Positions 4,922 through 36,712 of a stretch of 36,712 bases of DNA are shown piece after piece. The position numbers and the translations under genes were made by a program. The stretch comes from Planctomycetaceae bacterium. GTDB lineage: Bacteria; Planctomycetota; Planctomycetia; Planctomycetales; Planctomycetaceae. The notes below the pieces were generated by a model. That model did no database searches and was not told the origin of the DNA. It was given only the letters and a program-made list of their open reading frames with translations. Where the stretch lies: contig JAKFWA010000091.1 of assembly GCA_021732995.1 (NCBI GenBank), positions 1 to 36,712 on the forward strand, written 5' to 3'. Position 1 is the stretch's first letter, and every line of letters starts with the position of its first letter.

Positions 4922-4943
4922 GCTGACTGACCGGAGCGTGCTG

Positions 4944-5855
4944 GTGAGCAAGAACTTCCGCAAGTTTCTGAAGCCCGAAGAGATCTCCCGCATTTCGCGA
5001 CTGGAAGTGCAGGCGCGGCAGGTCGTCGAAGGCTTTCTGTCGGGCATGCACCGCAGCCCGTACTTCGGGCAGTCGATCGAGTTCCTGCAGCATCGCGAAT
5101 ACGTAGCCGGCGACGACATTCGCCGCATCGACTGGAAGGCGTGGTCCAAGACCGACCGCTTCTACATCAAGCAGTACCAGGAAGACACCAATCTGCGGAC
5201 CACGCTGGTGGTGGACCTCAGCGAATCCATGCAGTTCTGTTCGGGCAAGCTGTCGAAGTACGAATACGCCTGCACGTTGTCTGCCGCGTTGTCGTATTTG
5301 TTGTTGAGACAATCAGACTCGGTGGGGCTGGTGACGTTCGATGACGCGATCCGCAGCCGCATCGAACATCGCAGCCAGCAGACACATCTCAATACGATGC
5401 TGGCGGCCCTCGCTGCTCAGGAACCGGCAGCGAAGACGGACATCTTTGAGATCTTGAAACAAGTGGCCGACGAACAATCACGCCGCGGCATGATCGTGTT
5501 GATCTCCGACCTGTTCGTGCCGCGTCCCGGTCTGTTCAAGGGACTGAACCTGCTGCGGTTTCGCGGTCACGACGTGCTGTTGTTCCACATCCTCGACGAT
5601 CAGGAACTCGACTTCGATTACTCCGGAACCACTAAGTTCGAAGGACTCGAAGCCTCCGGCGATCTGGTCTGCGATCCGCGTTCGTTGCGTGAGGGCTATC
5701 AGGCGGCCATGCAGGCGTACCTCGCCGAGCTGCGTCGCTTCTGTTCGCGCAGCAGCATCGACTATCAAACCATCCGCACCAGCGAGCATCTTGATGCCGT
5801 CCTGTCCCACTACTTGAACCACCGCATCGGCATGCGCGGCTCGGTACGGAAGTAG
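4944..5855 (+). CDS. DUF58 / von Willebrand factor A-like protein
   Basis: A 303-residue protein. The DUF58 core motif covers about residues 50-80, with [17 protein letters not shown] vWA-like fold follows with the MIDAS-type DLSESM near residue 91. DUF58 proteins usually work with a MoxR AAA+ ATPase as chaperone-like systems for metal insertion or envelope functions, but no moxR gene is in the window. The GTG at 4944 is preferred over the GTG at 4938 because a GGAG at 4933-4936 is then 7 bases away. It follows the DUF5989-like gene by 22 bases, so the two probably form an operon. A BatA-type gene that would normally be a neighbour lies 24 kb away on the other strand. Confidence 0.88.
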
Positions 5856-5901: not shown

Positions 5902-5933
5902 TCCTGGAGTGCTGAAGCCCGCTTCAGCCCTGC
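5902..5933 (+). repeat. 3'-flanking hairpin repeat, copy A
   Basis: A conserved left flank TCCTGGAGTGCT is followed by a perfect 8-bp stem with a 2-base loop: GCTGAAGC at 5911-5918 and GCTTCAGC at 5921-5928, then CCT. It lies 47 bases after the DUF58 stop codon in sense orientation. Copies B (35397) and C (35596, minus strand) share the flank but have different, still paired, stem bases. It is possibly a terminator-like or mRNA-end element spread as a repeat family. Confidence 0.75.
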
Positions 5934-5946
5934 ATAATTTGCAGAA

Positions 5947-6014
5947 GGCAGAACGATGTGGTGCAGACAATCTTGTCATCCACCGCTGCGACGGACAGGA
6001 TTGTCGTTCTACGA
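5947..6014. repeat. Palindromic repeat, degenerate copy D
   Basis: An imperfect inverted repeat with outer arms GCAGAACGA and TCGTTCTAC (8 of 9 paired) and inner arms GACAATC and GATTGTC. The right arm, GACGGACAGGATTGTC at 5990-6005, is nearly the same as the right arm of the perfect copy at 32868-32952. It fills the space between the convergent DUF58 and glnS genes and ends 2 bases from the glnS stop codon. Confidence 0.65.
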
Positions 6015-31874: not shown

Positions 31875-32840
31875 GTGTCGAAATATCTTGTGACGGGCGG
31901 AGCTGGTTTCATCGGTTCGCATCTGGTGACGCGGCTGGTGGACGAAGGGCATCAGGTGCGCGTGCTGGACAATCTCAGCACCGGCAACCGTGAGAACCTC
32001 GCTCATGTACGCGGCGACGTCGAGTTCCTGCATGGCGATGTGTCCGACACGCGAGCGTGTGCTCAAGCCGTACGCGGCGTGGAAGTGGTCTTCCATCAGG
32101 CGGCTCTGGCTTCGGTGCCGCTGAGTGTGAAGCACCCGCTGGAATCTCATCGAGCCTGCGCGACCGGCACCGTCACGCTGCTGGATGCCTGCGTGCGCGA
32201 AGGCGTACGACGACTGGTCTATGCCGGGTCGAGCAGTGCTTACGGCAACGATCCCGAAATGCCGAAACGCGAATCACAACTGCCGCAGATGCTGTCTCCG
32301 TATGCCGCCGCGAAGCTGGCTGGTGAACTTTACTGCGAAGCCTTCGCTGCCTCGCTGGGTCTGGAGACCGTGCGCCTGCGTTACTTCAACATCTTCGGAC
32401 CGCGGCAAGATCCAGCCAGCCCGTACTCAGCGGTGATCCCGCTGTTCGTATCGGCTCTGGTGAATGGCAAGCGGCCCACCATCTTCGGTGATGGGTCTCA
32501 ATCCCGCGATTTTACATTCGTTGAGAACGTCGTTGAGGCCAATTACCTCGCGGCTCATGCGCCGGGAGTTTCCGGACGAGTCTACAACGTGGCGTGCGGC
32601 GAATCGTTGAGCGTTCGCGAGCTGCTCGAAGAGATTTGTCAGAGGCTCGGCGTGCCGTTCAACCCGATCTTCGCCGCACCGCGAGCCGGGGACGTGCTGC
32701 ATTCCTGGGCCGACATCTCGGCAACGAAGCGAGAACTCGGATACGAAGTCAAAGTCGGCTGGCGCGAGGGACTGGCTCCAACCATCGACTACTACGCGGC
32801 CAAGGCAGGTTTCAACAAAGCGGCGGTCTGCACGCCGTAG
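31875..32840 (+). CDS. NAD-dependent nucleotide-sugar epimerase (WbpP/GalE-like SDR)
   Basis: A 321-residue extended short-chain dehydrogenase. The Rossmann glycines are G8, G11 and G14 in [10 protein letters not shown]. The catalytic Tyr143-x-x-x-Lys147 pair is in [23 protein letters not shown] and [10 protein letters not shown] are typical of UDP-N-acetylglucosamine or UDP-uronate 4-epimerases. The product would supply sugar nucleotides for exopolysaccharide or O-antigen-like chains, matching the Wzz-type gene that follows. The GTG start is supported by GAAGGA about 8 bases upstream; the ATG at 31758 would add 39 residues without similarity. The exact sugar cannot be told. Confidence 0.88.
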
Positions 32841-32867: not shown

Positions 32868-32952
32868 GTAGGACGGACAATCCTGTCCGTCGCAGCATCG
32901 TGGGGTACGTTTCCAACGTGCCTTGGAAGGCGGACAGGATTGTCCGTCCTAC
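32868..32952. repeat. Palindromic repeat, perfect copy E
   Basis: Two 21-base arms, 32868-32888 and 32932-32952, are exact complements around a 43-base centre. The left arm and the bases just after it contain a further hairpin, GACGGACA (32872-32879) and TGTCCGTC (32884-32891). The element begins 27 bases after the epimerase stop and lies in the leader of the Wzz-type gene. Copy D at 5947-6014 shares the arm sequence. Confidence 0.8.
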
Positions 32953-32974: not shown

Positions 32975-33016
32975 ATGTGTCTGGAATCGAAACATGACTC
33001 AAGTTCCCGCCCCTAA
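32975..33016 (+). CDS. Possible 13-codon leader peptide overlapping the Wzz-type start
   Basis: ATG at 32975 is preceded, at 8 bases, by GAGGGAG, a better ribosome site than that of the Wzz-type gene, and runs 13 codons to TAA at 33014-33016. It overlaps the first codons of the Wzz-type gene in another frame. It may modulate translation of that gene or be chance. Confidence 0.25.
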   Translation: MCLESKHDSSSRP

Positions 33017-35390
33017 CTCTTCCGCTGACGCTGGAGAGATCGACTACGTACAGATCGCGCTGCGGCACAAGGTGTTGCTGGCGGCCGGGCTGCTGCTGGG
33101 AGTCGGCGCCGGCCATCTGGTCTATCAGCAGATGGGCCCCGAGTACGTCGCGACCGGCAAGATCCTGGTCTCAAAGAAGGCGTCGGTGCAGTTGCGTGAA
33201 GGCGATTCACACGACGCGGGCGGACGCGGCGAACACATCGCACTCATTATGAGTCCGTTGATCGTTGAGCAAGCGGTCGAACTCGGTCGGCTCAACGAAC
33301 TACCTTCGATGCGCAAGTCCAAGGACGTCGTGGAAGACATTGTCGCGGGCTTGAAAGTGCAACGCAGTGCCGGGCAGGACAGTTCGGTTCTGAACGTGCT
33401 CGACATCACTTACAAAGCGACGAATCGTCAGGACGCTCAGAAAGTCGTCGATGCGATCATTGAGGCTTACGACGAGTTTCTCGGCGAGATTCATCGCAAG
33501 CGCATCACCGAACTGACGAAGCACATTGCAGAAGCCAACGGCTCGTTGCGCGATCAGATTCACAAGACCGAACGCGAGTACGAAGAGTTCCGCGCGGCGG
33601 CTCCGATTCACCTGAAATCGCAGACTCGCGGACCGGGCGGCGAACGCACCGGTACCGCGTCGAACATTCATCAGGAGAATCTGGAAGTGCTCGACAAGGA
33701 GCGTCAGCAACTGCTGCTCCGCAAGTCCGAGTTGCTGTCGCAGATTCAGTCCATTGAGAGCGGTCTGGCGAACGGCCAGTCACGCGAAGAACTGTCGGCG
33801 AGCATTCAACTCTTCAATACGACCGTGCGTGCTCCGCAAGATGCGGGCGCTGGAGTGAACTCGGCGGCGGGTGCGTTGAATCCACTCAACCCGCTGGCGG
33901 CCAACAATGCCGCGCGGCCAGAAAACAGCAGCCTGGAATCGCAATGGCTCGCGCTGAAGCTGCAGCAGGAACAGTTGATCCTGAACTACGGACCGGAATG
34001 GCCGGCGATTGAAACCATTCGCCGACAGCTCGCCTTGATTGAATGGCAGTTCCGCCAGAAGGGCTTGAAGCTGCCTTCCGAAGCCACGGCCCTGGCGGGA
34101 ACTCCGGGAGTACCCGGCGCACCCGGCACGGTGCCCGGAGCGGCGAAGGCCGATCTGGTCAGCCTGTATGTGTCGTCGTTGCGGCAGCAACTGGATGTGG
34201 TGCAGCGGCGCGAGATGGAGATCAGCCGCGTGTACTCGGTCGAGTTTGATAACGCCCGACTGCTCTCGCGATATGTCGAACAGGATCGTCACTTTCATGA
34301 CGATCTTGATCGCATGAACTCGCTGTGGAACGTGGTGCGCGAGCAGGCGGCCAAGGTCGATCTGCAGAAAGACAATCGCGAATACGCAATGCAGTCGATC
34401 TCGCCGATCCGCACGACGCTCTCGATCAAGCGTCTGATCAAGCTCTACGGAGCCGGACTGGGTGCGGTCATGGGAGCGACCTGCGGGCTGATTGGCCTCT
34501 TTGAACTTCGCCGGCGACAGAACAGCACGGCAACGACTCAAGTCACAACTAAGGCGGCAACCGCTGTCGCTCCTGCCGCCACAGCCGCGCCTGCGGTTCC
34601 GGTGCGACCCGCTGTGACCACTCCGTTCACAACGCTCGGCAGCATTCCGCAACTGGTACCTGCCGCTGGTGGCGATGCAGACTCGGCCCTGTGTGTGCAT
34701 CACCGAGCGAACTCGCCGGAAGCGATCGCGTTTAAAGCGACTGCTCAATCACTGCTGGCTCAACTGCCGGCTGCGTCGACTGCCATTCAAGTCGTCAGTG
34801 CGGCGCGAGGCGATGGCAATTCGTTCGTGATTGCGAACCTCGGCCTGGCTATCGCCGCAACCGGCAAGCGTGTGCTGATCATTGATGCCGATTACACCAA
34901 CCCGGTCCAGCATGCTCAGTTCGGACTGCGTAACGATATCGGACTGGTCGATGTGCTCAGTGAAGATCTGGATCTGCTGACGGCTTCGCGACCCACGGTC
35001 GTCGTCGGCCTGCATGTTCTACCGAGCGGCCAAGCCAGCTCTGAACTTGATCTGTCGAGCGAAGCTTTCCGCCTGCTGCTCGTCGATGCTCGTCGCGAGT
35101 TCGATGTCGTGTTGATCGACTCTCCGAGCTTCAGCGACTCCACGCAGGCGATCGTGATTGCTCAACGAGCCGAACACGCCGTCTTCGTGTGGCGCCCGCA
35201 CCACTCGAACGCCGAGCAGGTGCAGAACGCCGTCACGCATCTGCAACGCGGCCAGTGCACGGTCATCGGAGCCATCGCAACCGATTGCATCACGGGCAGC
35301 GTTCCGGCTCCGAAGAAACCAGTTGATATCAACGCTCCCCTGGACCCAGCCGCCTTCCGGCAACTCGCTAAAGTCCTCGACAGACAGTAG
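32994..35390 (+). CDS. Wzz/chain-length protein fused to a degenerate BY-kinase domain
   Basis: A 798-residue inner-membrane protein of the polysaccharide co-polymerase class. A Wzz domain (about 15-110) begins with a membrane helix near 27-45. Coiled coils lie around 165-260 and 310-350, and a second membrane helix is at about 483-505. An Ala/Thr/Pro linker leads to a BY-kinase-like domain (about 565-790). Walker A' (VLIIDADYTNP) and Walker B (VVLIDSPSF) are present, but Walker A reads ARGDGNSF, with Asn609 where Lys is required, and no Tyr-rich tail exists. The domain is probably not a kinase. The context is the epimerase upstream. Confidence 0.88.
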   Translation: MTQVPAPNSSADAGEIDYVQIALRHKVLLAAGLLLGVGAGHLVYQQMGPEYVATGKILVSKKASVQLREGDSHDAGGRGEHIALIMSPLIVEQAVELGRLNELPSMRKSKDVVEDIVAGLKVQRSAGQDSSVLNVLDITYKATNRQDAQKVVDAIIEAYDEFLGEIHRKRITELTKHIAEANGSLRDQIHKTEREYEEFRAAAPIHLKSQTRGPGGERTGTASNIHQENLEVLDKERQQLLLRKSELLSQIQSIESGLANGQSREELSASIQLFNTTVRAPQDAGAGVNSAAGALNPLNPLAANNAARPENSSLESQWLALKLQQEQLILNYGPEWPAIETIRRQLALIEWQFRQKGLKLPSEATALAGTPGVPGAPGTVPGAAKADLVSLYVSSLRQQLDVVQRREMEISRVYSVEFDNARLLSRYVEQDRHFHDDLDRMNSLWNVVREQAAKVDLQKDNREYAMQSISPIRTTLSIKRLIKLYGAGLGAVMGATCGLIGLFELRRRQNSTATTQVTTKAATAVAPAATAAPAVPVRPAVTTPFTTLGSIPQLVPAAGGDADSALCVHHRANSPEAIAFKATAQSLLAQLPAASTAIQVVSAARGDGNSFVIANLGLAIAATGKRVLIIDADYTNPVQHAQFGLRNDIGLVDVLSEDLDLLTASRPTVVVGLHVLPSGQASSELDLSSEAFRLLLVDARREFDVVLIDSPSFSDSTQAIVIAQRAEHAVFVWRPHHSNAEQVQNAVTHLQRGQCTVIGAIATDCITGSVPAPKKPVDINAPLDPAAFRQLAKVLDRQ

Positions 35391-35396
35391 GCCAGA

Positions 35397-35430
35397 TCTT
35401 GGAGTGCTCCGGCCCAGTCGGAGCCCTCCA
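35397..35430 (+). repeat. 3'-flanking hairpin repeat, copy B
   Basis: The flank TCTTGGAGTGCT is followed by a stem of CCG and CGG next to GCT/AGC, with a GCCCAGT loop, then CCT. The larger stem GGAGTGCTCCG against CGGAGCCCTCC has one mismatch. It starts 6 bases after the Wzz-type stop codon, in sense orientation, and is followed by ATTCTT, so it may end transcription. Confidence 0.75.
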
Positions 35431-35564
35431 TTCTTCGCGGCACTACGGCCAGGAATGACAAATAACCTGAGCCGTGAAGCTCGCGTTCTCGCAACCCTTC
35501 ATACGCAGGCAAGTTTGGACGGCCATGTTCTGCGCTACAGCCAGACTGAGCTCCGCAAACAAGG

Positions 35565-35596
35565 GAGGGCTGAGTCTGGGCCTCAGCACTCCAGGA
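35565..35596 (-). repeat. 3'-flanking hairpin repeat, copy C
   Basis: On the minus strand the flank TCCTGGAGTGCT is followed by a GAG/CTC stem, with GCTGAG and CTCAGC around GCCCAGA, then CCT. It begins 10 bases after the stop codon of the DUF6798-like gene, in sense orientation. With copy B it forms an inverted pair between two convergent genes. Confidence 0.75.
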
Positions 35597-35606
35597 TGAG
35601 GTTCGC

Positions 35607-36712
35607 TCACTTCGCAGCGGACACTGGCGTCATCGAGTACACGGTGTAGGTCGAATTCTCATAGACCACCGGCGCGTCCAGCACCGACAGGCGGCGGCTG
35701 ATGAAGTACTCAGCCTCGGTGTGCTTGTGCAGCTTCCGCACCTCCTCAGTGGTATAGCGACCGTGCTCGGGATCGGTACCCGCCCAGGCCAGCAGCCAGC
35801 GCAGGCGGTTGTTCCATGTCACGAGCGACTTCGCATCCTGCGGACAATCTTTGAAGGCTACATACTCGGCCCGCTGGGCATACCACTTGAAGGCCCAGCT
35901 CTCACGCGGGGTGATGAAGAGTGATTCCGGCGGCGTATTGGCTTTGACCCACTGACAGACATCCAGCCAGTCGCCCTCGCGATCGTCGGGCATGTAGCGG
36001 GCTGAACCAATTCCGAAGCCGTAAGCCAGAGTGCCCAGCATCAACGCTGCCGCGGCTGCTGTCAGCCGTCGCTGAGTCCTCGCCGGGTTTCGCAGCCAGC
36101 GAACGCGGTCCTGAAACCAACTGGCAAAGGCCAGCACAAAGAAGATCGGCACCACCGCATCAGCCAGACGGAACGGATAGAATTTCAGGATCGTCATGCG
36201 CAGTTCGAAGAGTGGCATCTTTTCTGGCCGAGGTCTCGGCCCCCACCCGGCTAGCCAACCCACCAGCGCGATGCCCACTGCTGCGATGACGAAACTTCTT
36301 AGCCAGGCATACTCACGCTGAGGAATCCGTCGCCCGGCCACCCAGCAGCCCACAGCCAGCATGAGCAGGTAGACCAGATACCCTCGTTTCGGAAACTGCA
36401 TCGGGTCGAGATGATGGGCCAGACGATAGAAGACCTGAATGTAGCTCGCCGTATACGAGTCTTCGGGGGCTTGGCCGCCCACTGCACTTAACGCCGGCAC
36501 GATGCCCGCGAGGCTGGCCGCCGCGAACAGCACGAGCCCCACAATCAACGAAACTTTTCGTCGCTGATCTTGCCCCCTTCGCCCCGGTCCACCGGGAAGA
36601 GGGGCCGGGGGTGAGGGGCACTGCTTGGCAACGGCATCTGAATCTGATTCCCCCCGCAGCGTGTCTGCGTCGTCAGAACTCGCGAGGGCAGTCTGATCTC
36701 GCCCCTCACCCC
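35607..36712 (-). CDS. Polytopic DUF6798-like membrane protein, N-terminus beyond window
   Basis: An open frame of 367 visible codons, entering from the right edge and ending at TGA (35607-35609). The visible part has about five membrane helices and then a soluble C-terminal domain with DWLDVCQWVKANTPP, a WAFKWYAQRAEYV segment and an EYFISRR strand, which recall the DUF6798 family. Function unknown. A TTG at 36548 could give a shorter 313-residue start, but the frame is open without a stop to the edge. Upstream of that TTG it reads through a Pro/Gly-rich stretch coded by a C/G-rich palindromic repeat. Confidence 0.65.
   Translation of the reverse strand, partial: GEGRDQTALASSDDADTLRGESDSDAVAKQCPSPPAPLPGGPGRRGQDQRRKVSLIVGLVLFAAASLAGIVPALSAVGGQAPEDSYTASYIQVFYRLAHHLDPMQFPKRGYLVYLLMLAVGCWVAGRRIPQREYAWLRSFVIAAVGIALVGWLAGWGPRPRPEKMPLFELRMTILKFYPFRLADAVVPIFFVLAFASWFQDRVRWLRNPARTQRRLTAAAAALMLGTLAYGFGIGSARYMPDDREGDWLDVCQWVKANTPPESLFITPRESWAFKWYAQRAEYVAFKDCPQDAKSLVTWNNRLRWLLAWAGTDPEHGRYTTEEVRKLHKHTEAEYFISRRLSVLDAPVVYENSTYTVYSMTPVSAAK
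36570..36712. repeat. C/G-rich palindromic repeat inside the last gene (continues past edge)
   Basis: CCCGGT (36583-36588) and ACCGGG (36591-36596) form the tip of a hairpin whose lower stem pairs CCCCTTC with GAAGAGGGG, with one bulge. A 12-bp inverted repeat, GGGGTGAGGGGC at 36608-36619 and its exact complement at 36701-36712, brackets the rest. It resembles interspersed repeats I remember from Planctomycetes. It is in frame with the last gene. Confidence 0.6.

Follow-up and report, generated by a model that had tools for sequence, protein, structure and literature searches.

The hairpins that lie behind several genes in this planctomycete DNA very probably form the two termini of a short mobile element of REPIN type, which is non-autonomous and likely spread by a RAYT transposase. 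The window, that is the whole stretch analysed, comprises 36,712 nucleotides and carries one complete element, a hairpin doublet of 200 bp at positions 35397..35596, flanked by two convergent stop codons and one of the 43 units found genome-wide. Two inward-reading hairpins form its ends, one at 35397..35431 on the plus strand with centre type TCCG/CGGA, the other at 35562..35596 on the minus strand with centre type TGAG/CTCA, and they enclose a variable interior (35432..35561) for which the mean identity among copies of the genome is 66%. A third hairpin with a GAA/TTC centre stands alone at 5902..5935 (+). The folding energies are −13.8, −21.8 and −16.6 kcal/mol for the hairpins at 5902, 35397 and 35596, with z values of −2.9, −5.4 and −2.7, respectively. 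The 57 nt on the 3′ side of the solitary hairpin (5934..5990, +) still align locally to the doublet interior with a score of 16, the maximum in 300 shuffles being 15, and it is therefore probably the remaining end of a decayed doublet.

A preliminary description of the window had reported three copies of one hairpin, and the sequences, coordinates, strands and pairing given for 5902 (+), 35397 (+) and 35596 (−), with centres GAA/TTC, CCG/CGG and GAG/CTC, are correct. All three are real hairpins, but those at 35397 and 35596 are two ends of one element and not independent copies. The sense orientation that was remarked on also holds; it is automatic, given that a pair consists of two inward-reading hairpins. 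Distances of 47, 6 and 10 nt from the preceding stop had been quoted. The last two stand, for a gene encoding 798 amino acids (32994..35390, +) that ends 6 nt upstream of the 35397 hairpin and for a convergent DUF6798 gene (35607..36548, −) with its stop 10 nt from the hairpin at 35562..35596. The first, for the DUF58 gene at 4938..5855 (+), is 46 nt by the present coordinates. Pfam confirms the DUF58 and DUF6798 names, whilst the 798-residue product labelled ‘Wzz-type’ has only P-loop NTPase matches below cut-offs.

An Rfam search of the window returned no matches above the gathering score. A separate GTAG-tagged hairpin pair (GTAGGACGGACAATCCTGTCC) is present at 32868-32952, 27 nt on the 3′ side of a stop at 32840, and a degenerate copy of it occurs at about 5960-6012, directly behind the 5902 remnant.

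The doublet as a dispersed unit

In the 9.39-Mb genome to which the window belongs there are 66 exact pattern matches and none to a reversed control pattern, so the earlier proposal of a repeat family is well founded. The strict pattern applied in a search of 170 genomes identifies 84 hairpins here, and 43 inward-facing pairs are recognized. Unit length is 194-203 bp in 40 of the 43, the others being 184, 184 and 241 bp. Related genomes provide 80 aligned units of 130-200 bp (loci L055-L155), 65 of them 166-171 bp long. As in REPINs and BIMEs, two REP-like hairpins in inverted arrangement are dispersed as one unit, which is multi-copy and extragenic apart from 8 of the 81 ends in related genomes that face a gene 3′ end, which overlap called genes, and a hairpin placed in frame within the RAYT gene.

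Pairwise identity of the ends is 94.5% in the window genome and 92.8% among 56 units from other genomes; that of the interiors averages 66%. Three pairs of units in the window genome have interiors that are 0.96, 0.95 and 0.93 identical within 40-nt flanks at most 58% alike, which suggests that the complete doublet is what moves. Some further pairs with high similarity in this genome also share their flanks and could have arisen by segmental duplication. At L198, L029 (position 3072) and L037 (position 8120) the outer arms of both ends are joined into one palindrome of about 35 bp, as deletion of the interior would be expected to leave. Copies are absent from contigs C1-C13, seemingly the longest of the assembly, and crowd short contigs (C100, C106, C113 and C124).

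Within the family, 13 of 170 genomes, representing 4 of 58 genera, contain the strict pattern; this is an undercount in that some end types, for example the GGTG type, are missed. The highest number of strict matches, 168, is in G111. With a slightly wider pattern and a sample of 297 genomes from the whole class, 4 are positive, each of them a member of Planctomycetaceae. Among the matches listed, the named records are planctomycete assemblies and one labelled Verrucomicrobiales. The latter, TH-Jun18-99, contributes the hairpins at L099 and L147, for which a mis-binned contig or transfer is possible. Three stretches of G138 contain single or decayed ends and no complete copies, and the plasmid and phage collections searched gave no match.

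Structure of the end hairpin

Every end consists of (T/C)CCTGGAGTGC, then four variable bases, GCTYGA, the four bases complementary to the variable ones, and GCCCTCCAT. The stem begins with GGAG/CTCC, followed by a T.C mismatch, present in 105 of 114 distinct hairpins, and then GC and the four variable pairs. The canonical REP foot GT[AG]G is absent; in these 114 hairpins the four bases that precede the stem are CCCT, TCCT or variants. The usual combination in the window genome is TGAG/CTCA at one end and TCCG/CGGA at the other, and the two ends differ in 30 of 32 parsed units. The commonest end types of other genomes are TGCG and GGTG, with different ends in 54 of 77 units.

In 102 of the 114 hairpins every one of the four centre pairs is complementary, whereas 2000 shuffles give 27.2 on average and never more than 41; the count omits 15 of 129 distinct hairpins that do not fit a 34-nt frame, and the shuffle ignores relatedness, though several different compensated types occur nonetheless. 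The suggestion that the fold is maintained by compensatory change in the stem is thereby upheld. Which fold is it? RNAalifold applied to whole units produces an end-to-end fold with almost no covariation, and the minimum-energy fold of the 200 nt pairs end to end as well. The chosen sets of units, A1 and A2, number 56 and 38. In the doublets that could be parsed, 32 of 43 units in the window genome and 77 of 88 elsewhere, local centres pair at both ends in 29/32 and 70/77 cases, whereas the ends are complementary to each other at the centre in 2/32 and 22/77. On this sequence evidence the conserved structure is the local end hairpin, not the end-to-end pairing.

The linked transposase

A first survey of 28 sampled RAYT loci found no hairpin, and many RAYTs carried repeats of their own. 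Four Y1_Tnp loci of the window genome gave one exact half-hairpin (L012) and two-mismatch matches, no more. A further 40 RAYT loci included one with the hairpin adjacent (G107), one with a doublet about 1.5 kb away and three with chance-like, three-mismatch matches alone. In total 72 of 136 Y1_Tnp matches were inspected; the G111 gene fell outside the set, its score there being too low. Against Pfam Y1_Tnp the G111 protein reaches 20.3, below the cut-off of 23. The absence of a RAYT link, as first judged from the 28 loci, was overturned by loci in G107, G111 and G001.

In each of these three genomes a RAYT gene is flanked by the same hairpins. That of G111 (L058/L265) is intact; doublets lie 0 nt past its stop and about 8 nt ahead of its start, with a third farther out. 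The G107 protein (L231/L266) resembles it, being 80% identical, and its gene has one internal stop and a doublet on one side, directly upstream. G001, a member of the window's genus, holds a broken RAYT piece of 68% identity, again with a doublet on one side (L272). The G111 protein scores 81.7 bits against the NCBIfam model NF047646 (REP_Tyr_transpos, cut-off 80), and homologues score 75.1, 82.4 and 79.6. Alignment of the RAYT proteins displays NHYHF and YVHTN, which we take to be the HUH and Y motifs.

A search of the 170 genomes for this RAYT gave matches in 13 at E 1e-10. The window genome has none at that threshold and may have lost the enzyme. Homologues in G141, G163 and G166, at 57-67% identity, come from genomes without the strict hairpin and are flanked by hairpins that share the GGAGTGC start with other sequence behind it; those at 46-51% identity are mostly flanked by GGACTGC hairpins. 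Read by eye, hairpin and RAYT appear to have diverged together. Other RAYTs in hairpin-bearing genomes are accompanied by their own, different repeats, and GTAGCAGGCACATTCC is a repeat that flanks a RAYT of the window genome (L011, G000:C53) and also borders some 195-bp units.

A cognate hairpin lies in frame within the RAYT gene itself, at about 4207 in L058, 3211 in L231 and about 2043-2073 in L267, a short way ahead of WPHAP, the stretch with which the HUH domain begins. It is present in G111 and G107, two species of one genus, and G141, from a further genus, has its own variant hairpin there.

The likely spreader is this RAYT, an HUH/Y1 enzyme with an HYH motif, which would recognize each hairpin as single-stranded DNA. 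By analogy with the TnpA-REP work described in parts of PMC6006769 and PMC2817692, it would bind the single-stranded hairpin and cut beside it. Target duplications of 4-10 nt are found at no more than 2 of 33 and 2 of 78 deduplicated sites, which is what an HUH enzyme would lead one to expect. The flanks match over 2-3 nt at up to 13 of 33 sites; these matches fall on conserved end bases, and a very short duplication is possible. Against the RAYT-REPIN reading stand the negative first 28 loci, the missing GT[AG]G foot and the lack of a RAYT match in the window genome, and also the good homologues in genomes without the strict hairpin and the RAYTs with repeats of their own.

Placement relative to stop codons

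Gene positions are from our own codon-usage caller, and the placement set for related genomes consists of 88 scored units, 48 of them from assembly CAMDDX01 (G111). The hairpins had been described as lying always just after a stop codon. In the window genome this is a tendency, not a rule: 53 ends adjoin the 3′ side of a gene and 29 the 5′ side, against a background of 129 and 137 (p 0.012), and none of 50 testable ends is within 0-1 nt of a stop (0.75 expected). The outer 6-12 bases of the elements are partly conserved in this genome too, and several stops occur just outside them. The closeness is sharper in some related genomes: among 81 ends that look towards the 3′ end of a gene, 33 sit 0-1 nt past the stop and 55 at 0-17 nt. 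Seven assemblies supply the 33, CAMDDX01 with 22 and the others with 5, 2, 1, 1, 1 and 1, whilst JAQGHT01 has none among its six 3′-facing ends. One belongs to the genus of the window and the remainder to genus g48. The adjoining stops are TAA (16), TAG (9) and TGA (8), and the hairpin types divide 17 to 16. For the 60 of 81 ends with both neighbours called and no overlap, 27 are at 0-1 nt, compared with 10.2 (sd 2.2) expected for uniform insertion within the gap. On the start-codon side the figure is 1 of 50, with 3.5 expected.

Hairpins after genes in general do not account for this placement. In the same loci 121 of 269 genes free of the element are followed within 100 nt by a hairpin of 10 bp or more (4 when shuffled), but whereas 90 of these start in the first 40 nt, only 17 do so in the first 5. 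Behind a BlaI-type regulator gene of genus g48, G112 carries the doublet directly past the stop; of the homologous loci, which include some paralogues, six carry other hairpin repeats close to the stop and two, in which the genes overlap, lack any element. Six orthologues of a cyclase-family gene are followed by the doublet (two), a shortened single hairpin (one), other repeats (two) or nothing (one). The homologous spacers of related species (L184-L192 and L193-L198) hold differing hairpin families, each near the stop of the same gene. The DUF58 gene and the 798-residue protein each have nine relatives whose fetched loci contain no clear copy, L203 having a two-mismatch match far from the stop. 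To judge by such comparisons, spacers past stops are a common landing or survival zone for repeats, since equivalent spacers carry different repeats or none.

In stop-adjacent copies the stem starts four to five nt past the stop and would lie within reach of a terminating ribosome. Once transcribed, such a hairpin would therefore probably slow the last steps of translation or protect the 3′ side of the mRNA, a likely side effect of its position. An effect of this sort is reported for E. coli REPs less than 16 nt from a stop (PMC12306157). A more speculative and rather unlikely idea is that the place where translation ends is also where the target is encountered by the RAYT or by its single-stranded substrate. 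Insertion itself, and not survival alone, would then be directed to 0-1 nt past stops, that of the RAYT gene included, and the in-frame hairpin before the HUH domain would limit synthesis of the enzyme itself.

Alternative explanations

Of the alternatives, the one raised in the preliminary description fares best, although we regard it as improbable: a site for bidirectional termination or RNA processing that selection maintains where mRNAs end, with the RNA hairpin stopping polymerase or setting the 3′ end. Convergent gene pairs are enriched around doublets in the window genome (16/39 against 22/133, p 0.002), and each of two converging genes would receive a sense hairpin from one of the two ends. 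The enrichment does not extend to related genomes (12/75 against 58/369), where 53 of the 75 doublets with both neighbours called lie between co-directional genes. Moreover, there is no U-tract; 0 of 85 and 2 of 173 ends reach a TransTerm-type tail threshold of −2.5, whereas a terminator-like tail near one copy scores −4.8. Terminator scans detect nothing at these hairpins, but are blind to a stem with a T.C mismatch, so that the tail score is the real test. Two copies in the window genome (L019 and L023) are situated beyond apparent canonical terminators. By its composition and contexts, then, the hairpin is not a canonical terminator, and that part of the description is not supported.

Less probable still is a domesticated regulatory RNA, for which the copies would now be held by selection on the mRNA and mobility would be past history. 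The contrast of ends 93-95% identical with interiors at 66% fits, as does placement against stops, and in two species (L193 and L194) the element occupies the same place in an orthologous spacer though the interiors have diverged. However, constant ends with drifting interiors are also expected under selection for mobility alone, near-identical copies in the window genome have unrelated flanks, and no particular copy seems to be needed because the same spacers in relatives hold other hairpin families or none. A classical MITE, mobilized through recognition of its terminal inverted repeats by a DDE transposase, is hardly credible: inverted ends, dispersed copies of 160-200 bp and the 2-3 nt flank matches could be read that way, but a target duplication of at least 4 nt is ruled out by the sites counted above, the ends contain conserved hairpins that often differ between the two, and the linked transposase is a RAYT.

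Comparison with known systems

The REPIN interpretation invites comparison with the elements of Pseudomonas fluorescens (Bertels and Rainey 2011, PMC3116915). In the sections of that paper drawn on here the inverted REP doublet is the mobile unit, decayed singlets exist and a RAYT is linked, all as in the planctomycete family. The simulations reported there use segments of 71 and 110 bp; the planctomycete doublets are about 167-200 bp, have no GTAG-type foot and often have unlike end centres. The Pseudomonas elements are described as randomly distributed in extragenic space, whereas the ends in one planctomycete genus crowd stop codons.

Likenesses to the TnpA-REP subclasses and their REPtrons, as set out in portions of PMC6006769, are based on motif and description, not profiles. 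They comprise a RAYT gene flanked by its own hairpins and an HYH motif as in subclass 2.8. That account also includes REP insertions that preserve the transposase reading frame (subclass 2.4, some 2.8), a feature shared with the planctomycete RAYT, where the in-frame hairpin precedes the HUH domain and is not between HUH and Y. ‘Double foot’ repeats, there put down to central deletion of a dimer, may be likened to those of this family. The planctomycete hairpins differ from the REPtrons in lacking GT[AG]G, although the same paper reports that subclass 2.6 and class 3 have atypical repeats.

The E. coli REP/BIME hairpins, in the parts of PMC12306157 considered, are also extragenic with many near stop codons, some of them within 15 nt, and those under 16 nt away are reported to lower translation. 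They are of other sequence, and in some related planctomycete genomes placement peaks at 0-1 nt. The GTAG and CGTC repeats, according to parts of PMC3733652, are short palindromic families with Planctomycetes named among the hosts. Neither tag is found at the planctomycete ends, and ‘GAGTGC’ is absent from the main text of that article.

A search of open-licence literature on planctomycete repeats, the hairpin sequence and the stop-codon link found no paper on this family. As far as we have seen, the REPIN/RAYT family is new and lacks the GT[AG]G foot; the novel aspects are the family itself, the absence of that foot alongside an HYH-type RAYT, the sharp placement at stops in one genus and the in-frame hairpin before the HUH domain. 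A RAYT/REPIN family with an unusual foot is thus available, together with its probable enzyme, in a phylum for which we found few described. Natural variants of both hairpin and enzyme exist, and the enzyme is intact, broken or not found depending on the genome, which makes the system suitable for a test of hairpin recognition. The placement of elements behind the stops of unrelated genes means that targeted insertion and selective survival of REPs become alternatives that can be tested against each other.
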